DNA of 9,275 nucleotides from Chloroflexota bacterium (GTDB taxonomy: Bacteria > Chloroflexota > Dehalococcoidia > SHYB01 > JACPQI01), in NCBI GenBank assembly GCA_016190545.1, contig JACPQI010000055.1:1-9275 (forward strand), given 5' to 3'. Of the stretch, positions 1 through 9,275 are shown piece after piece; the stretch's first letter is position 1; each line of letters opens with the position of its first letter. Below the pieces are notes generated by a model. The model was not told the origin of the DNA, made no database searches, and saw only the letters and a list, made by a program, of their open reading frames with translations. The position numbers and the translations under genes were made by a program.

Positions 1-111
1 GATGACGCCCTCCCGGGTGCGGGTGCAGATGACGATGTAGGTGTTGTTGTCGTACGGCCCCGTCACCGTGCGCCGTATTTCGATGTCTCGATCGCGGTAG
101 AACAGCGACAT
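1..111 (-). CDS. MBL-fold metallo-hydrolase, N-terminal fragment (cut by window edge)
   Basis: Only the first 37 codons are in the window; the gene continues past the left edge. The peptide starts MSLFYRDRDIEI and contains GPYDNNTYIVI. A glycine followed by xNNxY and a beta strand is the usual opening of glyoxalase II-like metallo-beta-lactamase-fold hydrolases, where the N-terminal strands precede the HxHxDH zinc motif. That zinc motif is outside the window, so activity cannot be judged. The ATG at 109-111 is chosen because GGGAGCAGG lies directly upstream and the domain begins almost at once. It is co-oriented with glmU but separated from it by 166 bases containing a foldback repeat, so it is probably transcribed separately. 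The family call is inference from a short segment. Confidence 0.6.
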   Translation of the reverse strand, partial: MSLFYRDRDIEIRRTVTGPYDNNTYIVICTRTREGVI

Positions 112-150
112 CCTGCTCCCTGCATTAGCTTGTAAACTTATATCTCTCTG

Positions 151-250
151 CCCTTCGACAGGCCCTTCGCTTACGCTCGAGGGCTAGCTGGGCTCGGCTC
201 AGGGCGAACGGAGTCATAAATCCGTTCGTGGTGAGCATCTCGAACCACCG
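151..250. repeat. Intergenic foldback repeat with nested hairpins
   Basis: The core is CGAACGG (205-211) and CCGTTCG (222-228), a perfect 7-bp stem with a 10-nt loop. The outer arms CCCTTCGACAGG (151-162) plus CTCAGGGCGAACGG (198-211) resemble the reverse complement of the right arm, which reads GGTTCGAGATGCTCACCACG before the core. The left arm appears split by about 35 bases (163-197), which hold CCCTTCG and CTCGAGGG as their own small inverted pair. Similar TTCGACAGGCTCAGG-type sequences recur between genes in many environmental bacterial genomes, as I remember them. It lies between the glmU stop and the MBL gene start and could act as a transcript end, but there is no T tract. Confidence 0.6.
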
Positions 251-277
251 GTACCCTTCCAATAGGTGCTTAGCACT

Positions 278-1675
278 TTACGCTTGTCTCCCTCTCCGCC
301 TGGCGGCAGAGCCGCTCTTCACCAGAGGCCGGGCAGGCACGCCAACCACCGTGGCCCCCGGCGGCACGTCACGGGTGACGACGGCCCCCGCGCCCGTCTT
401 GGATCCCCGCCCCAGGCGGACCGGCGCGACCAGCATGGTGTCCGACCCAATGAGCGCCTCGTCCTCGATGTAGGTGGGGTGCTTGCGCTTGCCGTCGTAG
501 TTGCAGGTGATGGTGCCGGCACCCACATTGACCTTGCGCCCAATGGCGGCGTCGCCGATGTAGCTGAAGTGGCCGCTGACTGTGCCCCGGCCCAGGCGGC
601 TCTCCTTGACCTCCACATAGTTGCCCAGGTGGACGCCTCGCTCCAGGTAGGCGCCGTGCCGCAGGTGACAGAAGGGGCCGATGGTCACCTCGTCCTCTAC
701 GGTGGCGTCTTCCAGCACGGAGCCGCCGATGACGCAGCGGGCGCCGACGGCGCTGTTGCTGATGGTAGCCCCCGGGCCGATGACGCACGCCGGGCCGATG
801 CGAGTTGTGCCGGAGAGGATGGTGAAGGGTTGCAGCAGCACGTCCTGGCCCAATTCCACGCCAGCGTCGATGAAGGTGGACGATGGGTCAATCATGGTGA
901 CGCCGGCGCGCATCCACCGCTCCCGGATGCGCTGGCGCAGCGTCGCCTCCGCCTGGGCAAGGTCGACGCGGTCGTTCACGCCGATGACCTCCTGGAAGTC
1001 GGCGGGTTGCGTGCGCACAGTGGCCCCCTCTCGCGCCGCCCGCGCCACCAGGTCGACGAGGTAGATTTCGCCGGGAGCGCTGGGCTTGAGCGCGGCCAGG
1101 TTGGGCCACAGCCAGGCGGCGTCGAAGCAGTAGACGCCGCTGTTTATCTCCGGGATATCGCGCTGGCGTGGGGTGGCGTCGGTCTCCTCCACGATGGCCC
1201 GGACCTGGCCTTTGCTATCCCGCACCACTCGCCCCAAGCCCTCGGTGGGGCCGCCCGTAGCGGTGAGGAAGGTGATGACCGCCTTACCGGCGCTGTGGGC
1301 GACCATCAGGCGTTGGAGCGTCTCGGCTCGTACGAGAGGCACGTCGCCGGACAGGACCAGGAGGTGGTCGGTGGTGTCCTGGAGAAGACGGCGGGCCTGG
1401 AGGAGCGCATGCCCAGTCCCGCGTTGCTGTCGCTGCTCAACATAATCGACGGCGCTGCCGAGCGTGGCGCGAACGGCTTCGGTGCCGTGACCGACGACGG
1501 CGGCGACCCGCCGGATACCCGCGTCACGGGCGGCCTGGACAGGGTACAGCGCCATGGGCTGGCCGCAGACCTGGTGGAGGACTTTGGGGGTCTGGGAGCG
1601 CATGCGCAGGCCCTTGCCTGCGGCGAGAACGACAGCCGCCCAGCGTGAGGTGCGCGCCGGTCTGCGGTTTGCCAC
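278..1675 (-). CDS. glmU: Bifunctional GlmU: glucosamine-1-phosphate acetyltransferase / GlcNAc-1-phosphate uridyltransferase
   Basis: GlmU makes UDP-GlcNAc, the cytoplasmic precursor of peptidoglycan and other glycans. It acetylates glucosamine-1-P with acetyl-CoA and then transfers UMP from UTP. Residues are numbered from the GTG at 1675 (465 aa, normal for the family). The N-terminal nucleotidyltransferase has LAAGKGLRM (17-25) followed by S-x-x-PK, LSGDVPL with metal-binding D111, EINSGVYCF (177-185), and GVNDR with the second metal ligand N235. The left-handed beta-helix domain runs from about 264 and carries NYVEVK, SGH with the likely catalytic His369, GAGTITCNYDGK and GSDT. The reading frame is open further upstream to an ATG at 1894, but those 73 codons only translate a repeat and are proline/arginine-rich. 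GTG 1675 is therefore preferred, although no clear Shine-Dalgarno sequence precedes it. The Thr usual in G-x-G-T-R-M is Leu23 here. The protein ends in a short basic tail. Confidence 0.95.
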   Translation of the reverse strand: MANRRPARTSRWAAVVLAAGKGLRMRSQTPKVLHQVCGQPMALYPVQAARDAGIRRVAAVVGHGTEAVRATLGSAVDYVEQRQQRGTGHALLQARRLLQDTTDHLLVLSGDVPLVRAETLQRLMVAHSAGKAVITFLTATGGPTEGLGRVVRDSKGQVRAIVEETDATPRQRDIPEINSGVYCFDAAWLWPNLAALKPSAPGEIYLVDLVARAAREGATVRTQPADFQEVIGVNDRVDLAQAEATLRQRIRERWMRAGVTMIDPSSTFIDAGVELGQDVLLQPFTILSGTTRIGPACVIGPGATISNSAVGARCVIGGSVLEDATVEDEVTIGPFCHLRHGAYLERGVHLGNYVEVKESRLGRGTVSGHFSYIGDAAIGRKVNVGAGTITCNYDGKRKHPTYIEDEALIGSDTMLVAPVRLGRGSKTGAGAVVTRDVPPGATVVGVPARPLVKSGSAARRRGRQA

Positions 1676-1798
1676 GGACTTGTCCAGATGTTCGTCTTTG
1701 TGGGGAGGTAACGCCCCCTCAGGCGTGGGTCTGGGGTCTGTCCTTGAGCCATCTGTAAAGGGAGGGTGTTCAGGGAACCGTAGGTTACCCTGACGGGG

Positions 1799-1866
1799 GG
1801 CTGGGGGTGTCCCCCAGCCTCTTCTTTGTCCCCCCCGCTCCCTTGGCAAGGGAGCGGGGGGGACAG
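1799..1866. repeat. Two strong hairpins of repeat type in the glmU leader
   Basis: The first hairpin has a 9-bp stem at 1799-1807 and 1811-1819 (GGCTGGGGG / CCCCCAGCC, loop TGT). The second is an almost uninterrupted 18-bp stem: 1827-1844 pairs with 1848-1865 around a GGC loop, with arms ending in CGCTCCCTT and AAGGGAGCG. Both lie between the predicted glmU promoter and the preferred start, inside the proline-rich pseudo-extension of the glmU frame. They look like mobile or REP-type intergenic palindromes. In RNA they would form very stable structures in the 5' leader. No U tract follows on either strand that would make a classical intrinsic terminator. Confidence 0.75.
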
Positions 1867-1920
1867 GGGGTGAGGGTTTTCTGAATAGCGACATAGGAAT
1901 AGCGGGTACCTTCGTCCGTG

Positions 1921-1949
1921 ATAGTACAGGTCAGCTATAGGGGTGTCAA
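1921..1949 (-). promoter_or_regulatory. Sigma-70-type promoter upstream of glmU
   Basis: Read on the minus strand, a perfect -35 TTGACA (1944-1949) is followed after exactly 17 bases by TACTAT (1921-1926, four of six consensus positions). Transcription would start near 1914, giving a leader of about 240 nt before the GTG at 1675, including the two hairpins. It lies downstream of the UT-M23 stop, so glmU probably does not depend on the upstream operon. Nothing else is seen in the 332-base gap between glmU and the UT-M23 gene except a small stem, TAGCC/GGCTA (1998-2010), over the UT-M23 stop codon. Confidence 0.7.
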
Positions 1950-2007
1950 GCGAACAGGGTAACTATCCACAAGCGCGATTCCTGGGTAGCTGCCGGGTAG
2001 CCGAAGG

Positions 2008-3633
2008 CTAGGGGACGACGCCGTTGCGCCGCCCGTTGCGGCTGGCCTGGGGGGTGTCCTGGGAGAAGACGTTGCGCACCATGTCGCCCAGATGGGGCAC
2101 GCCCTTCTTCACCAGAATCTTTCGTTGCCCATCGATGCGATAGTAGTTCCAGAACTTGGCGAGAACGGTGGCGGCCCCGATCTCAGGCCCGCGCTGGATT
2201 TGAAAGTGCAGGTGCGGCTCCTGGGAGCGGCCCGAGTTGCCCACGTAGCCCACGAGTTGGCCTCGCACCACCTTCTGACCTTCCTTCACCACAACGCCGC
2301 CGTGGGAGAAGTGGCTGATCTCGCTCAGGAGAGAGCCGCCGTGGTCGATGATGACCAGGTTGCCCCACTGCTCCTTCTCGTTTACTTCCGGCGGAATGTT
2401 ATCGCGTACCCAGTTGACGACGCGCACTACCGTGCCGTCGGCGGGCGCGATGACCGGCAGACCGAAGCTGTAATAGTCCTCAGCCCGCCGTCCGATGCCT
2501 TTGGTGGTGCGGCCCTGCTCATCAATGACCACGAAGTCCCAGGCGTAGGAGCCGTGGCCCCAGTGGGTCAGCATGCCGTGGTTCCCCTGCGCCACGTACC
2601 AGGTGCCCCAGAAGGGAAGGGTGAGTTGGAGGTCATTGCTTTGCCCCCACAGTCTGGGGAGGGGGAAGCGGGAGGGTGTGCTCCCCACCTGGTGGAGCGG
2701 CACGGGTACGAGCGTCCGCTGGCGACTGGAGACGGCCTTGCTCCCCACGACGCCCAGGAAGAGGAGGCTGACGGCGACGAAGGGGCCGTTGAGGACCGGC
2801 AGCCTCACGTCTGAAAAGGCCGGGTAGGCGGCGGCCGTGATGAGGGCGGCGCAACTCGCGCCGAAGAGGCCGAAGAGGACGGAGGCGGCGTTGAGCCGCA
2901 GGAAGAAGGCGCCCAGGATGACAGCGGTAAAGGCGCTGTTGAAGGAGACAATGACCTCTACGCCCGGACCGGCCGCATTGCTCGTGAGCCCTAAGCCCCG
3001 GACTGTGCCCAGGCCCACCAGGTAGCCAGCCAGCGCCAGCGCGGCGTAGAGCCGGGAGCGCAGGGCCAGGACAAGGAAGCCCAGGACCCCCAGCAGCACG
3101 CTGTCCTGGTAGAACAGCCAGCCGATGCTGCGGAAGAAGGTGACAAGCTCGTTCGGGAGCGATGTCCAGAGCGTGGTCTCGATGGACAGGACGCCGTCGA
3201 AGCGATAGTACGCGCTCCATGGCACGGAGGCCGGCAGGTGATGGATGGCTGCAAGGAGCGCCCAGCTCGCCAGAAGGAAGGGCAGCGTCAGGACGGGGAG
3301 ATGGAACTGAGTGGTGAGAGTGCGCATGAGGAAAGCCAGGAGCACGGTGGAGAAAGCGGCGGTAAGGGCTACCAGGCCGATGAGGGCCGGTTGGTGAATG
3401 ACGTACGATACGGAAACCAGTCCCACCAGGCCGCCGTTGCAAGCGTACAGTCCGGTCCTGATAAGGCTGCGGTCAGTGCGGATAAGGAAGGCCATCAGCG
3501 TCGCCGAGGCGGCGCCCAGAAAGGCCATCCCGCCGGCCCACGGGTTGAGCAAGAAGACCAGGCCGAGCAGCAGTCCGAACCAGGTGTTGTCCCAGAACAG
3601 AATGATGCCGAAGCCGCGCAGGACAGCATCCAC
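2008..3633 (-). CDS. Urea-transporter domain fused to M23 (LytM) metallopeptidase
   Basis: 541 aa from a GTG. Residues 8-300 hold about ten hydrophobic segments. They include YACNGGLVG (63-71) and FNSAFTAVILGAFF (231-244), matching the paired NGxLVG and FNS signatures of the two halves of the SLC14/UT urea-channel fold. A proline-rich linker (about 301-335) leads to an M23 domain with GHGSYAWDF (His360, Asp366), ISHFSHGG (439-446), and GNSGRSQEPHLHF with the HxH pair His474/His476. All usual zinc and catalytic positions appear present, so it may be an active peptidoglycan or glycyl-peptide endopeptidase. The UT part could pass urea or another small polar solute. Counting segments and arginine-rich loops places the M23 domain on the cytoplasmic side, which is odd for a cell-wall enzyme. 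GTG 3633 is the only usual start codon after the upstream gene. It follows that gene by 83 bases and is the last gene of the putative operon. The fusion is clear; its substrate is unknown. Confidence 0.85.
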   Translation of the reverse strand: MDAVLRGFGIILFWDNTWFGLLLGLVFLLNPWAGGMAFLGAASATLMAFLIRTDRSLIRTGLYACNGGLVGLVSVSYVIHQPALIGLVALTAAFSTVLLAFLMRTLTTQFHLPVLTLPFLLASWALLAAIHHLPASVPWSAYYRFDGVLSIETTLWTSLPNELVTFFRSIGWLFYQDSVLLGVLGFLVLALRSRLYAALALAGYLVGLGTVRGLGLTSNAAGPGVEVIVSFNSAFTAVILGAFFLRLNAASVLFGLFGASCAALITAAAYPAFSDVRLPVLNGPFVAVSLLFLGVVGSKAVSSRQRTLVPVPLHQVGSTPSRFPLPRLWGQSNDLQLTLPFWGTWYVAQGNHGMLTHWGHGSYAWDFVVIDEQGRTTKGIGRRAEDYYSFGLPVIAPADGTVVRVVNWVRDNIPPEVNEKEQWGNLVIIDHGGSLLSEISHFSHGGVVVKEGQKVVRGQLVGYVGNSGRSQEPHLHFQIQRGPEIGAATVLAKFWNYYRIDGQRKILVKKGVPHLGDMVRNVFSQDTPQASRNGRRNGVVP

Positions 3634-3716
3634 GAAGGCCCAGGCCCTGCTCTGCGCGATGCGCCGGCGCCAGGGCAGGGCGGGCGGCGCCGCTGCTGAG
3701 GGCTGAGCGGTGACGC

Positions 3717-5090
3717 CTATGTGGGCTTGACTGACAGTCGCCGTGGGATGCGCTCCAACTCGCGTATGTACTTTGTCGACTCGGCTTCCCGGACTACTTC
3801 CACATCGCCCTCATTGATGAGGACAATGGCAGGGCGGGGCTGGATGAACTGCAAGGACTGAGTGAAGTTATAGGCGCCCACATTCTTGATAATGAGCAGG
3901 TCGCCCCGGCGCACCGGCGGCAAGGACACCTTGCGCTGCAGCACGTCGATCTGCATGCACAGTGGGCCGTAGAGGTTGACCTCCTCCAACACGCTGCCCA
4001 TGGCCAGGCTGCCGGAGTCCTCGGCGGAGCGGACCTCATGCCTGTACCAGACGTACGTGGGCAGCAGGTTCACGCCAGCGTCCAGCACCACGCCTTTCTC
4101 CCCGGTTGGCAAATGCTTGATAGCGACGACGCTGGTGAGCAGGTGCATCGCTTCGTCCACGATGGCCCGGCCCGGCTCCATGAGCAAGAGAGGGCGCGGC
4201 TCCGGCAGGCTTTTGAGCAGAGTGGGGCAGATCGCCTCCGCGTACTGGTCGAAGGTGGGGGTGGCGTAGGCGGCGGGCATCCACTGGTCGTGCAGCGTGT
4301 TGTGGGAGGCGAAGCCGCCGCCGATATCCACGTACTCCAGGATGACGCCCGACTCGGAGAGTTGCTTGGCAAAGCCGCCAAGCTTTTCAGCGGCCTGGCG
4401 GTAGAGGTCCGGGTCCAGGATGAAGGTGCCAAGGTGGCTGTGCAGGCCCGATAGCTTGAGCTTGGGAGAGGCCATGACTCGTTGGCAGGCGTGCAGGGCC
4501 TGGCCATTCTCAAGGTTGAAGCCGAAGCGGTCCCAGGCCAGGGGGCCCACGCTCATGTTCACCCGGATACCCACGGGCACCACCCGGTCCATCTGCTGGG
4601 CCAGGGTTTCAAGAAGGGCCAGCTCATCATAGGAGTCCACATTGATCTTGGCGTTCTGGCTGATAGCCCGTCGCAGCTCCGCCTCCGTCTTCTCCGGGCC
4701 GTTGAAGATGATGTGGTCGCCTGGAATGCCCAACTCTTCGGCGATATCGTATTCAAACCCAGAGACGACCTCGGCCCAAGCCCCCTCCTGATGGAGGATG
4801 CTGCAAACGGCGGAGAGGTAGTTGGTCTTGTAGGAGTAGCCTATGGCGATCTGGGGATAGCGCAGGCTGAAGGCCCGGTGGAGGTCCGTATACTTGCGCC
4901 GCAACGTCGCCTCCGACACCACCCACAATGGCGAGCCGAACTGGGACACCAGTTCTTTCACCGGCACACCATCGATGCTGGCGTGCGGGATGGCTGACGC
5001 CAGCCTCCCGAAGCGGTTGACGTTCCCTACGGAGTGCTTGACGACCGCAGGCTTTTCGTAGAAGGCTTTTTGATTGTTTTTTCTGGCCAT
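3717..5090 (-). CDS. Fold-type III PLP-dependent decarboxylase-like enzyme (DapDC/ODC family)
   Basis: 457 aa from ATG 5090. The alanine-racemase-type barrel shows YSYKTN with the PLP lysine Lys88, EVVSGFEYDIAEELG (107-121), a phosphate-binding GGG (257-259) and EPGR (305-308). The C-terminal beta domain shows GPLCMQID (Cys378, Asp382; compare the C-x-x-x-D of diaminopimelate and ornithine decarboxylases) and GDLLIIKNVGAY (396-407). The full catalytic set suggests decarboxylation of a basic or D-centred amino acid or of a ligated product. It is not called lysA because the context is not lysine biosynthesis. The catalytic domain begins near residue 38. The preceding extension contains YEKPAVV (11-17), resembling an RRE-recognised leader motif. 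The frame is open another 100 codons upstream, but those are the shadow of the ATP-grasp gene. ATG 5090 has GGGAGAGG and GGAG nearby. It overlaps the ATP-grasp gene by 64 bases, implying translational coupling. Confidence 0.88.
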   Translation of the reverse strand: MARKNNQKAFYEKPAVVKHSVGNVNRFGRLASAIPHASIDGVPVKELVSQFGSPLWVVSEATLRRKYTDLHRAFSLRYPQIAIGYSYKTNYLSAVCSILHQEGAWAEVVSGFEYDIAEELGIPGDHIIFNGPEKTEAELRRAISQNAKINVDSYDELALLETLAQQMDRVVPVGIRVNMSVGPLAWDRFGFNLENGQALHACQRVMASPKLKLSGLHSHLGTFILDPDLYRQAAEKLGGFAKQLSESGVILEYVDIGGGFASHNTLHDQWMPAAYATPTFDQYAEAICPTLLKSLPEPRPLLLMEPGRAIVDEAMHLLTSVVAIKHLPTGEKGVVLDAGVNLLPTYVWYRHEVRSAEDSGSLAMGSVLEEVNLYGPLCMQIDVLQRKVSLPPVRRGDLLIIKNVGAYNFTQSLQFIQPRPAIVLINEGDVEVVREAESTKYIRELERIPRRLSVKPT

Positions 5091-6163
5091 GCTCCAGTCC
5101 CTCTCCCGTTCTTGCGCAAGACCAGTTCGCCGTGGTCCACCAGATGGGCGACCTGGTCCATAGAGCAGACGATGTCTTTGGCGTGGCGGACGTATACGAC
5201 GCCCTCCTGATATGGCGCAAAGGCCGGGGCGCGTTTGCCGAGAGCGAGATGCACTGCGCGGGCGGGCATGTTCTGGCCAGCCCTGGCCGCCAGGTAGACC
5301 CAGGCCGGAAAGCGAGGGTTGATCTCCAGCAGGTAGGGCTTGCTGGTGGTGGCGTGACGGACGAACTCGAACTCCAGAGGGCCGACCCAATTGAGCTTTT
5401 CCACGATGCGGGCGGCTAGATCAAGCAACTCTTGGTCTCTAATAGTGACGGCGGCCCAGGCCTTGCCGCGCTCGGAGACCCCCAGCTTGCGCATGGCGAC
5501 CGCCCCCACCATCGTGCCCTTGCGGTCGCACAGGGCGGCCACGTCGCGCTCGTCGCCGGGAATGTACTCCTGGGCCAGCAGCGGGATGCCCCAGGTGGCG
5601 TGCAAGGTGTCGAAATAGGCCCGGGCCTGGTCGGGTGTGTGGGCCAGGTGAGCGCCGTGGAGAATGCCTTTGACCACGAAGGGGTAGCCGAAGGTCTTGC
5701 CGGCCTTTTCCAGTTGCTTGGCCTCGAAAAGAAGCTCCGTCTTGGGTGCGGGCACGTCGTTGGCGGCGCAGAACTGGTGCAGGGTATGTTTGAAGTGGGT
5801 CCGCAGCCGGTGTTCGGTGGGGATCAGCAGGCGGATGCCCATGGACTGGAGCACGTGTTCCAAACGGCAGAAGTTGATGATTTCGCCATCCAGCGTGGGA
5901 ATGATGACATCGATACGAGTTTTGGTGCGTATCTCTCGAAGTCGGTGCAACAGAGCGCCTTCGCCCTGGGCTGCGTAGGGCAAGAGATAGACTTCGTCCA
6001 CCAGCTCGCCGCTGTAGATGCCGGTGTCCAGGGCGTCATAGGCCAAGCCTATGATCCGCACCTTGTCGCCCAGGCCGCTGGCGTCCCGCAGGCTCTGGAT
6101 GACGGCGATGCCCGGATTGGGGTCGTCGGTGGCGTTAAGGCCCGTGACGGCTACGTGTAGCAT
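5027..6163 (-). CDS. ATP-grasp ligase of the carbamoyl-phosphate-synthase-like type
   Basis: 378 aa. Residues 1-115 form the pre-ATP-grasp Rossmann-like domain, opening MLHVAVTGLNATDDPNPG with the nucleotide-type glycine turn and including IDVIIPTLDGE (84-94). The ATP-grasp fold follows: YPFVVKG (160-166) with ATP-binding Lys165, LLAQEYIPGDERD (195-207) in the hinge, and the metal-binding GPLEFEF (261-267) and LLEINPRFPAW (278-288; Glu280, Asn282). Such enzymes activate a carboxylate as acyl-phosphate and join it to an amine, as in CarB or PylC. Partner genes suggest an amino acid, peptide or protein substrate, but this cannot be read from the sequence. The start fits because beta strand 1 begins immediately; the ribosome site is weak. 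The last 20-odd residues are polar, low in complexity and overlap the next gene. No CarA-like glutaminase is nearby, so true carbamoyl-phosphate synthesis is unlikely. Confidence 0.87.
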   Translation of the reverse strand: MLHVAVTGLNATDDPNPGIAVIQSLRDASGLGDKVRIIGLAYDALDTGIYSGELVDEVYLLPYAAQGEGALLHRLREIRTKTRIDVIIPTLDGEIINFCRLEHVLQSMGIRLLIPTEHRLRTHFKHTLHQFCAANDVPAPKTELLFEAKQLEKAGKTFGYPFVVKGILHGAHLAHTPDQARAYFDTLHATWGIPLLAQEYIPGDERDVAALCDRKGTMVGAVAMRKLGVSERGKAWAAVTIRDQELLDLAARIVEKLNWVGPLEFEFVRHATTSKPYLLEINPRFPAWVYLAARAGQNMPARAVHLALGKRAPAFAPYQEGVVYVRHAKDIVCSMDQVAHLVDHGELVLRKNGRGTGAWPEKTIKKPSTKSLRSSSTP

Positions 6164-6268
6164 AGGAATTACGTCCCGTGCAAAGGCGGTATGCCCTGCG
6201 CCTTCCGCAGAGGCAAAAACGGCGGGTCTCTCCAGGTACAGGGTAAGACCATACGTATCCCAGCGCCG

Positions 6269-6520
6269 CTACCGTGCCGACTTGACGACCAGGCCGAGGG
6301 CGGTCAACTGGTCGAGAAAATCGCGCAGGTCCTTGCGCGCAGTCTCCATATCTACTTCAAAGTGCTTGCTCATGGTCTCCAGCACCCGATTGACGGTTGC
6401 CCCCTTCTGCAATTGCCGGAGGATGAAGGAGCCGGTGGTATTAAGACTATAAATAGCTCCTGTTTCTGGATCGAAGGCAAAACCCTTATCGCTGAATGTG
6501 ATGTCCTTCAGGGTTTCCAT
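6269..6520 (-). CDS. PqqD-like small protein (RiPP recognition element fold)
   Basis: 83 aa from ATG 6520. It shows the PqqD/PF05402-type pattern: a beta hairpin with FDPETGAIYSLNTTGSFIL (16-34), then QKGATVNRVLETMSKHFEVD and an amphipathic final helix ending FLDQLTALGLVV. PqqD-like proteins are wHTH-type RREs that bind leader peptides and present them to modifying enzymes. In other systems they serve as small chaperones for protein or peptide modification. It is the first gene of the putative operon, 105 bases before the ATP-grasp gene and in the same reading frame. A GTG four codons upstream (6530-6532) is possible, but the predicted transcript starts at about that point. ATG is therefore preferred, giving an almost leaderless mRNA with no Shine-Dalgarno. 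The PQQ pathway itself is not implied: no pqqA or pqqC/E is present. Confidence 0.83.
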   Translation of the reverse strand: METLKDITFSDKGFAFDPETGAIYSLNTTGSFILRQLQKGATVNRVLETMSKHFEVDMETARKDLRDFLDQLTALGLVVKSAR

Positions 6521-6542
6521 AATAAGCAACACGTAGTATACT
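6514..6542 (+). promoter_or_regulatory. Promoter for the methyltransferase gene
   Basis: TTTCCA (6514-6519, four of six matches to TTGACA) and TATACT (6537-6542, five of six matches to TATAAT) are 17 bases apart. Transcription would start near 6549, leaving a leader of about 52 nt that includes the ribosome site. Its -10 box overlaps that of the minus-strand promoter because AGTATACT (6535-6542) is a perfect palindrome. Confidence 0.5.
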
Positions 6543-6563
6543 TCGGTACTTGAAATTGGTAAA
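6535..6563 (-). promoter_or_regulatory. Promoter for the PqqD/ATP-grasp/PLP/UT-M23 operon
   Basis: On the minus strand, TTTACC (6558-6563, four of six) and TATACT (6535-6540, five of six) are separated by 17 bases. The start of transcription would be near 6528, only about 8 nt before the ATG at 6520. No other promoter-like pair was seen between the four genes. Confidence 0.55.
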
Positions 6564-6585
6564 GACCTGTGAACAGAATGTGAAA

Positions 6586-6591
6586 AGGGAG
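6586..6591 (+). promoter_or_regulatory. Ribosome binding site that fixes the methyltransferase start
   Basis: AGGGAG lies 9 bases before the ATG at 6601. The frame is also open from a TTG at 6550, which has no such site, so ATG 6601 is chosen. Confidence 0.7.
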
Positions 6592-6600
6592 TGCACTCCT

Positions 6601-7644
6601 ATGGTTGAGAGCAGCGTCCATCACGAGATCACCTCTACCCAGCGCGAGGACGCCTTCTATTCCTTCCTGGCGGGGGCAGCCAAAGCCGCCCTTCTGGCCT
6701 CCGTCATCAAGACAGACCTTCCGTCACTCCTGGCGGATCGGAGTCCCATGACCGCCGGCCAGATCATTGGCGCCTTGGCGCTGCAGCCGTTCCGGGGCCG
6801 CAAGTGGCTGCTGCTGCTGCGCTACGCCGGGCTGTTGGACGAGACCTGGCAGCCCGACGCCTACGAGCCCACCTACACCGGCACTCCCCTGTTGCGCGCG
6901 CTGTTCAAAAAAGATGGCCGCGGCGGCTGGTTCTTCCGCGATTTCATGCGCTACTGGGACAAGTCCACCTCCCATGACGTGGTTGACGTCATCATGGGCG
7001 GCCCCGTACCGGAACCGGTACCGTACCCGCCCAAGGAGCCCGAAGACGTGGAGGCGCTCCATAAGTGGATGCGGGAGGGCGCCAGGGAGACGCTGGAGAG
7101 CATCATCCGGCGCTTCGACTTCTCTACAGCGTCGCGGGTCCTGGACGTGGGCGGCGGCGACGCCACCATGGCCGCCATCCTGGTCAAACGCCTCCCTCAC
7201 CTTCACGTCACAGTCTTTAACCTGCCCCAGGCCTGCTTCCTCGCTCGCCAGACCGTCGCCAAGGCGCACGCAGGTGATAAGGTAACTATAGTAGATGGCG
7301 ATTTCTTCAAAGACAGCCTCCCCACGGGCTACGACCTGGTGATGTTCTCCCGCGTCTTGGCGGACTGGCCGGTGGAGGTGTGCCGCATGCTGCTGGCCAA
7401 AGCCTACGCGGCCCTGACGCCGGGCGGTCAGGTCCTCATCTGCGAGCCCTTCGCCAACGAGAACCCGGACCTCACCATCGCCTGGGAGCATTCTTACCTT
7501 CCCTATGACGACTTCGGCTACCAGGTGTACAAGCCGGTCAGCGTTTACCAGCAGCTCCTGTACGAGGCCGGGTTCAGCCCGCCGCAGGTCATCCCCCGCG
7601 ACCAGGACACCATCCACGGCATCCTGGTCTCGCGCAGGATGTAA
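6601..7644 (+). CDS. SAM-dependent methyltransferase, plant-type O-methyltransferase family (PF00891-like)
   Basis: 347 aa. The N-terminal ~110 residues are helical with a winged-helix dimerisation region, ending GLLDETWQPDAYEPTYTGTP as is typical of this family. The Rossmann SAM domain has RVLDVGGGDAT (179-189), VTVFNLPQA (203-211), VDGDFF, and GYDLVMFSRVLADWP (243-257), then LTPGGQVLICEPF. It would transfer methyl from SAM to a hydroxyl, amine or carbon of a small molecule or peptide. Two positions are unusual. The family His of L-H-D-W is Ala254, and the ribose-binding Asp of F-D-L-P is Asn207. Classical His-base O-methylation is therefore doubtful, and C- or N-methylation, proximity catalysis or a non-methylating role is possible. 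It is divergent from the PqqD operon with 80 bases between starts, suggesting shared control and perhaps a shared pathway. Confidence 0.85.
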   Translation: MVESSVHHEITSTQREDAFYSFLAGAAKAALLASVIKTDLPSLLADRSPMTAGQIIGALALQPFRGRKWLLLLRYAGLLDETWQPDAYEPTYTGTPLLRALFKKDGRGGWFFRDFMRYWDKSTSHDVVDVIMGGPVPEPVPYPPKEPEDVEALHKWMREGARETLESIIRRFDFSTASRVLDVGGGDATMAAILVKRLPHLHVTVFNLPQACFLARQTVAKAHAGDKVTIVDGDFFKDSLPTGYDLVMFSRVLADWPVEVCRMLLAKAYAALTPGGQVLICEPFANENPDLTIAWEHSYLPYDDFGYQVYKPVSVYQQLLYEAGFSPPQVIPRDQDTIHGILVSRRM

Positions 7645-7688
7645 AGACGGGTCTCAGGCCAGCTTTGCACGAAAAGCGGCGGCTGTCC

Positions 7689-7800
7689 TGTCACCCTTGA
7701 GTCCCGACCTATCGGGACGAAAGGTCTGGGGAGGCGGGACTGGTTTGGTGAGCCACCCCCCAGATTCTTCGCCCCGTTTGTATCGGGGCTCAGAATGACA
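7689..7800. repeat. 112-bp foldback (MITE-like) element
   Basis: The two imperfect inverted arms are about 43 bases each: 7689-7731 and 7758-7800. They start TGTCA and end TGACA, and are separated by about 26 bases. Each arm has its own inner hairpin: GTCCCGA/TCGGGAC (7701-7718, loop CCTA) and GCCCCG/CGGGGC (7771-7789). The arms match at roughly three positions in four, and the differences inside the inner stems are compensated (GTCCCGA versus GCCCCG), which suggests selection for structure. It follows the methyltransferase stop by 44 bases and may end that transcript. The arm sequence resembles an ATTCTGAGCGAAG-type intergenic repeat I associate with environmental Chloroflexota genomes. It encodes no transposase. 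Confidence 0.75.
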
Positions 7801-7866
7801 TATTGGCGCTCTCTGGCCCGTCCTCCTTGCTTCGCAGAAGGACAATTGGTTCTTCATTTCGTCGTA

Positions 7867-7889
7867 GGGGCGAGTTTCAAACTCGTCCC
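7867..7889. repeat. 23-bp near-perfect palindrome
   Basis: GGGGCGAGTTT and AAACTCGTCCC flank a single C, with one G-T mismatch. The GTAGGGGCGAGTTTCAAACTC form looks like another dispersed intergenic repeat unit. It has no T tract and no clear link to a gene. Confidence 0.6.
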
Positions 7890-7921
7890 GTTTGCTCCTC
7901 CACCTTGGCTTTTCCCAAAAG

Positions 7922-7995
7922 CGTTCGATAGTCTTCTCATAGAGTATCGCTTATGTCTTATTCGTTCGATAGTTTGCCCGGCCTGCTATACTATC
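7922..7995. repeat. Direct repeat CGTTCGATAGT with an inverted half-site
   Basis: CGTTCGATAGT occurs at 7922-7932 and again at 7963-7973, 41 bases apart (about four helical turns). The inverted half ACTATC follows at 7990-7995. The sites lie upstream of the small winged-helix regulator and could be operators for it or for another factor. The rest of 7801-8000 shows no gene. Confidence 0.4.
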
Positions 7996-8000
7996 TGTTA

Positions 8001-8036
8001 CAGGAACCCTGTTTCCTGAACCGTGCGTACTATAAT
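8001..8036 (+). promoter_or_regulatory. Probable promoter with operator-like palindrome for the winged-helix gene
   Basis: A perfect TATAAT (8031-8036) lies upstream of the regulator gene, giving a leader of about 117 nt. No good -35 is seen 17 bases upstream. That region is instead occupied by the palindrome CAGGAA-CCCTGT-TTCCTG (8001-8018), which also contains ACAGG/CCTGT (8000-8012). Such a layout would suit an activated or self-repressed promoter. The stretch 8040-8159 has nothing else recognisable. Confidence 0.4.
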
Positions 8037-8159
8037 AGGGTTCACCCCGCCTCTCCTCTTTCCTTCCCACCGTCCCCATGCAGGAGGGAAGAGAGATAGC
8101 AACGCTAAGAGTATTGTCCTTGAACGGAGCGAAAGAGTGATGGTCCCTTAACGAAAGCC

Positions 8160-8507
8160 ATGTCCACCACAGAACGCGACTGGACATTCATCACCAACCA
8201 TGGCCTGGTGCTCGGCTACATCTACCGCCACCCCAAGAGCACCAAGCGCGAGATCGCCCTGGCCGTCGGCATCACCGAGCGCACCGCCCACAACATCGTC
8301 CTGGCCCTGGTCAATTCAGGCTACATCGCCCGCCGCAAGCGTGGCCGCCGCTACTCCTATCGCATCAACCCCGAGCTTCCCCTGCGCCCCAGCACCAATC
8401 GCGACATGGTCGTCGGCGACCTTCTCAAGGTCGTCGCTCCCAAGCCCGCGCCCGCCGCCAAGCGCCGGCGCAAAGAGCCCCCGCTGGCTGGGCGAAGGTT
8501 GCTGTAG
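8160..8507 (+). CDS. Small winged-helix DNA-binding protein, MarR/ArsR-like
   Basis: 115 aa. After DWTFITNHGLVLGYIYRHP (7-25) comes a helix-turn-helix: KREIALAVG (29-37), then a recognition helix from about TERTAHNIVLALVNSG (39-54). A basic wing, YIARRKRGRRYSYRIN (55-70), completes the wHTH. The tail (about 93-115) is rich in Ala, Pro, Lys and Arg. Proteins of this type (a single wHTH that uses the ITERTA.. turn to read DNA) are abundant small regulators in Chloroflexota, as far as I recall; their ligands are not known. No ligand domain is present. The ATG at 8160 follows an in-frame-stop-containing leader with a weak ribosome site. It may act on the palindrome and repeats just upstream, or on the convergent MBL gene. 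Confidence 0.8.
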   Translation: MSTTERDWTFITNHGLVLGYIYRHPKSTKREIALAVGITERTAHNIVLALVNSGYIARRKRGRRYSYRINPELPLRPSTNRDMVVGDLLKVVAPKPAPAAKRRRKEPPLAGRRLL

Positions 8508-8521
8508 GGGCGGCCTACAGC
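8501..8521. terminator. Hairpin covering both convergent stop codons
   Basis: GCTGTAGG (8501-8508) and CCTACAGC (8514-8521) pair perfectly over the loop GGCGG. The left arm holds the TAG of the winged-helix gene (8505-8507), and the right arm holds the reverse-complement TAG of the MBL gene (8515-8517). It could end transcription from both sides, but neither strand has a T tract, so a Rho-independent mechanism is uncertain. Confidence 0.5.
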
Positions 8522-9275
8522 CGCGCCAGCAGCCCTTCGTAGCCGCGTGTGCCGGTCGCACTCACCATGTGCGGGTCGTCAGGCAGGTAGGCCACGTCCC
8601 CCGCCTCCTGCAGCAACTCCAGGTGCGCAATGACCTCGTCGATAGCCATGTAAAGAAACCGGCCGGACAGCTCTGTCCCCCGAAAGTGCTTCAGCGTAAG
8701 CTCGGTCACGGAAAGCGGCCCTTGCTCCAGCACGTCCAGGATGCGCCCCAGCCGCCGCCGGTGGTGGTCGATGATCTCTTCCGCCCGCGACTTGCCGATG
8801 AGGTTGAGTTTTCCTTTGAAGTACAACCGATGGGAGGGCAGCAGCGTTAGGTCGCCCTCCAGCTGCGTAATGCGTTTCATCGATCGCAAAAACACGTACA
8901 GGCCGTAGTAGACGTTCTGTTCACGGTAGGACGCCGGCAAAGCCTCTTTGAACAGGTCGTAGCGCAACTTCATTGTCGGGTGGGGCGTGATCTGGGGCAG
9001 CACGTGGTCGCCCGTTATCAGGTATGGCCCACGCTGGATGCACAACTCCTCCGGCGTGTGGCCGGGCACGTGGTAGAAGCGCCAGCCGTCAAGCTGGCCT
9101 TCCTGGAGCGGCTTGCTTAGCCACAGGCGGGAGCGGTACTCCTGGTGCCGCGCCCAATCCGCCTCGTTAATGACATAGGGCATTCGGCCCTCGCGGCGCA
9201 TGAACCGCTGGTGGAACTGCTGCTCCCACTCCAGGTAGTTGATGTCCAGGAAATAGCCGTAGACCTCGTGAGCCC
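8515..9275 (-). CDS. MBL-fold metallo-hydrolase with C-terminal winged helix (LACTB2-like), C-terminal part
   Basis: The frame is open to the right edge, so the N-terminus, including the expected HxHxDH zinc motif, lies outside the window; about 252 residues are visible. An ATG at 9199-9201 exists but is internal, because the upstream residues (DINYLEWEQQFHQRF) continue the protein. Visible MBL features are HVPGHTPEEL (His codon 9058-9060), YLITGDHVLPQITPHP with the bridging Asp (9007-9009), and LPSHRLYF with a late His (8830-8832). About 70 C-terminal residues (from KSRAEEIIDHHRRRLGRIL) form the helical and winged-helix module of LACTB2-type hydrolases. Relatives act on RNA, thioesters or glyoxalase substrates; the substrate here is unknown. 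It is convergent with the winged-helix gene, with 7 bases between stops. It is distinct from the MBL fragment at the left edge. Confidence 0.82.
   Translation of the reverse strand, partial: AHEVYGYFLDINYLEWEQQFHQRFMRREGRMPYVINEADWARHQEYRSRLWLSKPLQEGQLDGWRFYHVPGHTPEELCIQRGPYLITGDHVLPQITPHPTMKLRYDLFKEALPASYREQNVYYGLYVFLRSMKRITQLEGDLTLLPSHRLYFKGKLNLIGKSRAEEIIDHHRRRLGRILDVLEQGPLSVTELTLKHFRGTELSGRFLYMAIDEVIAHLELLQEAGDVAYLPDDPHMVSATGTRGYEGLLARL

Follow-up and report, generated by a model that had tools for sequence, protein, structure and literature searches.

Four co-directional genes on the minus strand of a Dehalococcoidia contig (Chloroflexota bacterium, assembly GCA_016190545.1, contig JACPQI010000055.1, positions 1–9,275; the whole 9,275-nucleotide stretch is referred to as the window) form one strongly conserved unit, far beyond chance. 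They encode, in order of transcription, a small PqqD-like protein of 87 amino acids (6269–6532, with a likely ATG at 6520), an ATP-grasp ligase of the PF15632/PRK12767-like type (5027–6163), a pyridoxal phosphate (PLP) decarboxylase of fold III, the alanine-racemase fold, with an active-site loop like that of FigC (3717–5090), and a fusion of a urea-transporter (UT) domain to an M23 peptidase domain (UT-M23; 2008–3633). The start of the PLP gene overlaps the end of the ATP-grasp gene by 64 nucleotides. All four proteins score above their Pfam cut-offs: PF05402, 64.6 bits (cut-off 23.4); PF15632, 54.8 bits (29.1); PF02784 and PF00278, 122 and 52.3 bits (both above cut-off); and PF03253 and PF01551, 164.3 bits (25) and 68.3 bits (28.7), respectively. 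An initial annotation of this stretch had called these four genes and a divergent methyltransferase, and scans of open reading frames (ORFs), Pfam, and NCBIfam agree with all five calls in both position and family. Together, the four genes appear to provide for the synthesis of a small molecule with an amine group and for its handling by a membrane protein that is half urea-type channel and half peptidase.

Conservation of the four-gene unit

The ATP-grasp profile alone was used as the query against 84,980 species genomes, and the neighbouring genes were examined afterwards. At least 565 ATP-grasp relatives were confirmed, of which the best 80 were kept, a choice that biases the neighbourhood counts toward close relatives. 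Whichever of the genes are present, they follow the order PqqD, ATP-grasp, PLP, and UT-M23 on one strand in 80 of 80 loci. A PLP gene stands beside the ATP-grasp gene in all 80, and a UT domain is found in 71 of 71 evaluable loci (71 of 80 overall; the other nine contigs stop no more than 103 bases past the PLP gene, and the UT gene is not visible there). PqqD lies upstream of the ATP-grasp gene in 77 of 79 evaluable loci (77 of 80 overall), at a distance of about 2 kb in L004; L012 begins too near the ATP-grasp gene to show it. In eight loci the contig runs out inside the UT gene; in L034, L052, L062, L071, and L081 this happens at 240–321 residues, before an M23 domain could appear. Median intergenic spacings are −4, 9.5, and 10.5 nucleotides, with the window and the viral contig L001 (described below) included.

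The linkage was also seen in a tool-drawn sample of 198 Bacteroidota genomes, which includes the sample's centre, G002. The ATP-grasp ligase (E≤1e-60) is present in 20 of these, and in all 20 the UT-M23 fusion (E≤1e-30) shares its contig and strand, the two matches lying 1.3–2.1 kb apart. One of the 20, G261, carries UT-M23 as two ORFs. By the same threshold, the fusion is found in none of the 178 genomes that lack the ligase; five of these have matches to the M23 part only. Pairwise divergences of the four proteins across 64 loci are correlated (Spearman 0.84–0.92, with 0 of 999 permutations as high), values that partly reflect shared species history. The linkage counts, the Bacteroidota survey, and the divergence correlation refute, for the four-gene core, the idea of unrelated genes that are neighbours by chance. 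Nothing speaks for that idea beyond the methyltransferase, GlmU, and other flanking genes, and its probability is close to nil. The earlier proposal that the four genes belong to one set is thus borne out, and related genomes clearly do not lose the neighbourhood (the counts in the 80 loci; 20 of 20 versus 0 of 178 in Bacteroidota).

Of the fetched loci, L002, which belongs to a Dehalococcoidia metagenome-assembled genome (MAG), G001, has the operon closest to that of the window for all four proteins; single-protein database relatives are closer than L002, with identities of up to 65% for the ATP-grasp ligase. Presence in Chloroflexota is sporadic, since the set was found in one of 251 genomes and that one, G001, is the survey's own centre. 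The record titles of the 80 loci name Chloroflexota, Bacteroidota, Ignavibacteria, Neomarinimicrobiota, Planctomycetota, Armatimonadota, Myxococcota, and others, some of the MAG titles perhaps being misassigned. Named strains with the operon are Mucilaginibacter gossypiicola Gh-48, M. agri R11, Pedobacter paludis R-8, and Hymenobacter edaphi NL. The source databases label the operon genes as carbamoyl-phosphate synthase, urea transporter, or MepM.

Several single records deserve mention. L065 and L077 hold Bacteroidota-like operons in MAGs titled Bifidobacterium breve and Competibacteraceae, and these contigs are perhaps misassigned. Contig C1 of G380 has ATP-grasp and UT-M23 matches at both ends with identical ATP-grasp scores, probably the redundant ends of an unclosed circle. 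In G261 (L094, 5944–8198), UT and M23 lie in two frames of one long contig, as though the gene were broken or the sequence faulty; these split genes were considered as evidence for an M23 protein without a signal and were dropped, as the junction looks frame-broken.

Active sites of the PLP enzyme and the ligase

Each of the three enzyme domains of the unit has conserved active-site residues. In the PLP enzyme, the Schiff-base lysine is present in all 82 aligned rows, the ring-stacking histidine in 81, the glycine-rich loop in 80, the phosphate arginine in 79, and the catalytic cysteine in 78, with gaps in the rest. A methionine follows the catalytic cysteine (Cys478-Met479) in 78 of the 78 rows having residues there (four of 82 are gapped). 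The best PDB sequence match is the N-citrylornithine decarboxylase FigC (7kh2, 190 bits), whereas DapDC structures score 166 bits at most. The enzyme shares with FigC the Cys-Met active-site loop and a Trp-x-Arg-Phe-Gly-Phe stretch.

According to a study of FigC (PMC7857480), this enzyme has a methionine (M355) beside its cysteine, whereas L/ODC, ADC, and DapDC have an acidic residue that holds the side-chain amine. The same study groups FigC with SbnH, AcsE, MccE, and BtrK, whose substrates are amino acids with a second moiety already attached (for BtrK, an 87-amino acid carrier protein), in a clade that also contains DapDC and D-ODC. It further proposes, from docking, that His357 and Arg387 of FigC contact citrate. 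By an equivalence counted by hand on the HMMER alignment to 7kh2, all 78 rows carry Ile and Gln at these two positions, and citrate is therefore not the expected partner. On the FigC specificity helix, Thr327 corresponds to Thr in 69 of 78 rows and Tyr331 to Tyr in 73, and Thr330 is replaced by Trp in all 78.

The PLP enzyme falls below the curated cut-offs of both the FigC/FslC model (NF041039, 225 bits; cut-off 500) and the LysA model (TIGR01048, 251 bits; cut-off 297.9), and it looks like a family of its own, as judged by these two cut-offs. Because its active-site features are FigC-like and not DapDC-like, it should decarboxylate an amino acid that is already coupled to something, for which the ATP-grasp ligase is the obvious coupler. 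An ordinary DapDC was rejected on account of the methionine in the cysteine loop and the missed LysA cut-off. The label DapDC-like given in the initial annotation is right for the fold and probably wrong for the class of substrate. The wider expectation stated there, of amide-bond formation combined with amino-acid decarboxylation, fits the active-site evidence on the PLP enzyme.

The ATP-grasp ligase is probably active, because none of K125, K165, E264, E266, E280, and N282 varies among 25 aligned sequences, one of which is the window's. PF15632 is the ATP-grasp family of tellurium-resistance (Ter) operons; a Pfam scan found no Ter genes among the eight genes of the window, and the other loci were not scanned systematically.

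The small protein shares the PF05402 domain with the PqqD family and with recognition elements of ribosomally synthesized and post-translationally modified peptides (RiPPs). Unlike PqqD proteins of the pyrroloquinoline quinone pathway, it scores below the cut-off of TIGR03859 (20.2 of 46 bits), and no precursor peptide was found near the loci. It scores just above the cut-off of TIGR04353 (36.6 versus 35 bits). TIGR04353 is the PqqD model of the HPr-rel-A system, for which an HPr-kinase-related partner would be expected nearby; Pfam and NCBIfam scans confined to the window found no such family among its eight genes. A covalent carrier with a conserved tail, as in LysW, was also considered and is not supported, as the C-terminal tails vary (40 of 79 compared).

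The UT-M23 fusion protein and the flanking genes

The UT-fold membrane domain spans residues ~1–300 of the fusion protein and the M23 domain residues ~340–485. Conservation was followed in 93 rows, made up of 65 UT matches above 400 bits (64 loci and the window, with partial UT genes excluded) and the 28 rows of alignment A1; the window protein, and probably that of L002 (P0004), is counted twice. A1 and two further alignments, A2 and A3, consist of 28, 25, and 28 sequences, respectively, chosen by hand out of 120 among the matches listed per search. The zinc and catalytic residues of the M23 domain (H357, D366, H441, H474, and H476) are kept in 92–93 of the 93 rows, and are intact in the L002 protein as well.

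The termini of urea transporters are cytosolic. With this frame, and with loops assigned by hand on the predicted helices, Lys and Arg make up 0.145 per residue of the inner loops and 0.037 of the outer loops, and the inner value is the higher in 93 of 93 rows. From this charge bias, the M23 domain and both termini are predicted to lie in the cytosol. The M23 enzymes known so far work beyond the cytoplasmic membrane, where they cut peptidoglycan or other extracellular peptides. In contrast to these LytM/lysostaphin-type endopeptidases, the M23 domain of the window is predicted to lie inside and occurs in a lineage without transpeptidases.

G001, the MAG that contains L002, has no MraY, transpeptidase, or MurC above cut-off, and a single 35-bit match resembling Mur ligases. 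No transpeptidase was found in any of the five genomes of its order, itself included, whereas three operon-bearing diderm genomes have all of MraY, transpeptidase, and MurC. Many Dehalococcoidia and SAR202 are reported to lack peptidoglycan while some orders keep it, according to two studies (PMC10284905, PMC11994032). Because G001 lacks these three markers of peptidoglycan synthesis, a role of this M23 as a wall hydrolase is improbable. A link to peptidoglycan peptides, as had been suggested for the locus, is weakened by this absence and by the predicted cytosolic position of M23.

Pore residues of the Desulfovibrio channel are Gln24, Glu187, Thr130, and Thr294. In the 93 rows, the Gln24 position is Gln in 49 (five gapped), the Glu187 position is Glu in none, the Thr130 position is Thr in 12 (Ser in 69), and the Thr294 position is Thr in four. 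The domain has the UT fold but scores 106 bits against the NCBIfam urea-transporter model, below its cut-off of 274.6. It thus differs from the Desulfovibrio vulgaris urea transporter (3k3f/3k3g) in this score, in the changed Glu187 and mostly changed Thr294 positions, and in being fused to M23. The replaced pore residues weaken the candidate of a plain urea channel and, as they include those that contact urea, the suggestion that the locus serves urea- or guanidine-like solutes. Long forms of UT-M23 have an extra β-rich C-terminal domain of ~180 residues (~545–723 in P0101), which is confidently modelled and absent from the short form in the window. Pfam scans of two long forms gave no match to this domain, and the rows of the fold search covered UT and M23 only.

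Genes for tetratricopeptide repeat (TPR) and/or barrel-like proteins lie on the same strand near 50 of the 52 loci that have UT-M23 and at least 2.5 kb of downstream sequence; the exceptions are L002 and L078. These genes were assigned by similarity clusters, and "barrel" is a reading of the sequences, the barrel-like proteins having no Pfam match. Such partners in diderms point to a route across the envelope, and also leave open an M23 domain that faces the periplasm. The four-gene core occurs without outer-membrane genes in L002 and in the window. In most loci outside Chloroflexota, these genes extend the operon downstream of UT-M23, for example at L011 9860–11712, L044 14383–15753, and L008 14550–16006.

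Upstream of PqqD, a secreted-looking protein of ~150 amino acids with a conserved cysteine near its C-terminus is encoded in nine loci (for example, L004 1474–1932, L024 9252–9677, and L005 3–410). In L003, this protein is encoded directly before the ATP-grasp gene, at the place of PqqD. Recurrent upstream genes in Bacteroidota encode a GNAT acetyltransferase (13 loci), a histidine kinase (nine), and an AraC-type regulator (five), with one member of each annotated (examples at L031 9113–9616, L039 7829–8887, and L064 9018–9614).

L001 is a viral contig of 65,709 bases (IMGVR_UViG_3300047160_011268) with PqqD, ATP-grasp, and PLP genes in order at 3444–5922, next to genes assigned by PHROGs to a phage-type DNA polymerase, an exonuclease, a DNA methyltransferase, an endonuclease, and a helicase. 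The ATP-grasp ligase has no match in annotated phages or plasmids. The PLP protein has eight matches in phage records, at 26–28% identity, which we took as general DapDC-like genes. Spread by phages or plasmids was considered and finds this one phage-like contig among the viral contigs.

The divergent gene next to the operon encodes a class I O-methyltransferase (plus strand, ORF 6550–7644, probable ATG at 6601; PF00891, 99.9 bits, cut-off 22.3) that lies outside the conserved system. The initial annotation had counted it with the set, but none of the 81 fetched loci (L001–L081) has a homologue at E≤1e-3, and the gene was rejected as an operon partner; L002, the closest fetched Chloroflexota locus, has only ~310 bp upstream and cannot test its membership. 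The intergenic region between operon and methyltransferase (6521–6600) has promoter-like consensus matches in both directions, which are weak (9 of 12 positions), and the whole window has five promoter-like sites versus a mean of 1.4 in shuffled sequences. Such sites are no evidence by themselves.

Downstream of the operon, also outside the system, is a minus-strand gene for GlmU (ORF 278–1894, conserved part 278–1645; TIGR01173, 504.7 bits, cut-off 366.85). GlmU is absent from the neighbourhoods of the 81 fetched loci except for one 17-bit match in L028. Its best matches with a readable organism name come from Dehalococcoidia and SAR202 MAGs, in keeping with a Chloroflexota host. The gap between UT-M23 and GlmU contains, on the minus strand at 1921–1949, the window's best promoter-like match (10 of 12), which suggests that GlmU has a promoter of its own. 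At the other end, a winged-helix DNA-binding gene (8160–8507, plus strand) is convergent with an incomplete minus-strand gene at the window edge (8515–9273) that weakly resembles MBL-fold hydrolases (NF053820, 38.7 bits, cut-off 525). Rfam gave no match anywhere in the window.

A proposed biosynthesis-and-release pathway and its alternatives

We propose that the four genes constitute one system that couples, decarboxylates, cleaves, and releases, to which we assign a probability of about 0.4; linkage, residues, and fold are observed as described above, and the steps, with their substrates, order, direction, and membrane side, we infer. The ATP-grasp ligase, with its partner presented by the PqqD-like protein, would join a carboxylate to an amino acid by an amide, leaving the α-amino-acid end free. 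The FigC-like PLP enzyme would then take off the carboxyl group of the coupled amino acid to give an amine-bearing conjugate. The M23 domain, at the cytosolic face of the UT-type channel, would cut an amide or peptide bond of this conjugate, and the small, probably uncharged product would pass through the UT domain, whose pore is unlike that of true urea channels. In diderms, the operon-encoded TPR and outer-membrane-barrel proteins may carry the route further outward. The last part of the scheme, in which a cytosolic M23 domain on a modified urea-type channel cuts the conjugate made by ligase and decarboxylase at the mouth of the pore and the released amine exits, would be a type of system not described before, with an M23 peptidase that serves export from inside the cell instead of the wall and that is retained even where peptidoglycan has been lost; taken on its own, we regard it as tentative and rather doubtful.

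A number of observations weigh against this proposal. No carrier or peptide for the PqqD-like protein was found around the loci, where no conserved small ORF is common to the family and the recurrent ones resembled fragments of larger genes or other families, and L003 and L006 have no detectable PqqD. Nothing in the whole 65.7 kb of L001 matches UT-M23, so the three enzymes are able to move separately from the membrane protein and may also work in its absence. A passive channel is a poor explanation of direction, and the order of the steps could be other than that given. The outer-membrane partners would also fit a periplasmic M23 domain. So would the M23 relatives that lack a UT domain in Bacteroidota, which look exported: six of nine start with a signal-peptide-like segment, as judged by eye, and two more with membrane helices. 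Cysteine content, tried as a test of sidedness, was at first supportive when set against the outer-membrane partners, and gave no decision with exported-looking M23 controls (1.32 Cys per 100 amino acids in UT-linked M23 versus roughly 0.8, or 14 Cys in 1694 amino acids, in the controls). Finally, G001 is a 1.2-Mb MAG of no given completeness in which three marker families were tested, which weakens, without removing, the argument from a missing wall.

The main rival to the proposed pathway places M23 in the periplasm, where it would trim peptidoglycan or some other peptide of the wall; the enzymes in the cytosol would supply a substituent for UT-M23 to pass out and attach or exchange. The outer-membrane partners suit it, but all 93 rows have a charge bias that puts the M23 end on the cytosolic side, G001 lacks the three peptidoglycan-synthesis markers and its order has no transpeptidase, and in L002 and the window the core has no outer-membrane genes beside it. 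We consider this arrangement unlikely, though not by far. The same cytosolic topology would fit uptake, in which an amide- or urea-like solute enters through the UT domain and is cut by M23 on the inner side of the membrane, after which the ligase and decarboxylase turn it into an amine or amino acid that the cell needs. UT channels are passive, and inward flow is equally possible; the outer-membrane barrels could likewise be uptake pores. A PqqD-like protein and a coupling that costs ATP suit biosynthesis better, TPR-plus-barrel pairs resemble exporters, and the annotated recurrent neighbours are not catabolic, leaving uptake improbable.

A similarly small chance is given to a classic RiPP system, in which the PqqD-like protein would bind a ribosomal precursor, the ATP-grasp and PLP enzymes would modify it, and M23 would cut the leader. 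PqqD domains do include RiPP recognition elements, as described in PMC12710340, and the match to TIGR04353, a PqqD-family peptide chaperone model, exceeds its cut-off (36.6 versus 35 bits). Yet no conserved precursor peptide was found around the operons, though one may be encoded farther away, and the nine-member family of secreted ~150-amino acid upstream proteins is neither universal nor precursor-like. Nor is there a radical SAM, YcaO, lanthipeptide, or cyclase family among the ten annotated recurrent neighbours.

The proposed pathway has two partial parallels among known systems. Rhizoferrin biosynthesis by FigA and FigC (also FslC; 7kh2) shares the logic of coupling followed by decarboxylation and supplies the best PDB match to the PLP enzyme. 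It differs in having no PqqD, channel, or M23 protein and in the citrate-contact residues, His357 and Arg387 of FigC being Ile and Gln in the window family. The coupling enzyme FigA is, moreover, an NRPS-independent siderophore (NIS) synthetase and not an ATP-grasp enzyme. In butirosin biosynthesis, a small carrier (BtrI), an ATP-grasp enzyme (BtrJ), and an alanine-racemase-fold decarboxylase (BtrK) work on a carrier-bound amino acid, like the set in the window; BtrI, however, is an acyl carrier protein (by its name in PDB 7ru7) whereas the small protein of the window is PqqD-like, and a channel-peptidase is lacking. The logic would thus be like that of BtrI/J/K and of FigA/FigC, and the locus is a member of neither.

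We know of no counterpart for the channel-peptidase half. Full-text searches of open-licence papers gave, among the matches listed, no description of the four-gene combination, which may be described elsewhere; passages from two papers on ATP-grasp families hold nothing on this set, and the main text of a review on M23 (PMC9662197) has no word starting with "urea". In the open-licence papers searched, no described pathway matched the locus, in agreement with the first reading of the sequence. We rate the unit as a real but uncharacterised variant of ligase-plus-decarboxylase pathways.

The unit is widespread, with at least 565 ATP-grasp relatives and a presence in about one in ten sampled Bacteroidota genomes (20 of 198). 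If the proposed pathway is correct, these genes would provide many environmental bacteria with a new small molecule, and a peptidase family regarded as cell-wall enzymes would have an intracellular role, with M23 serving export.

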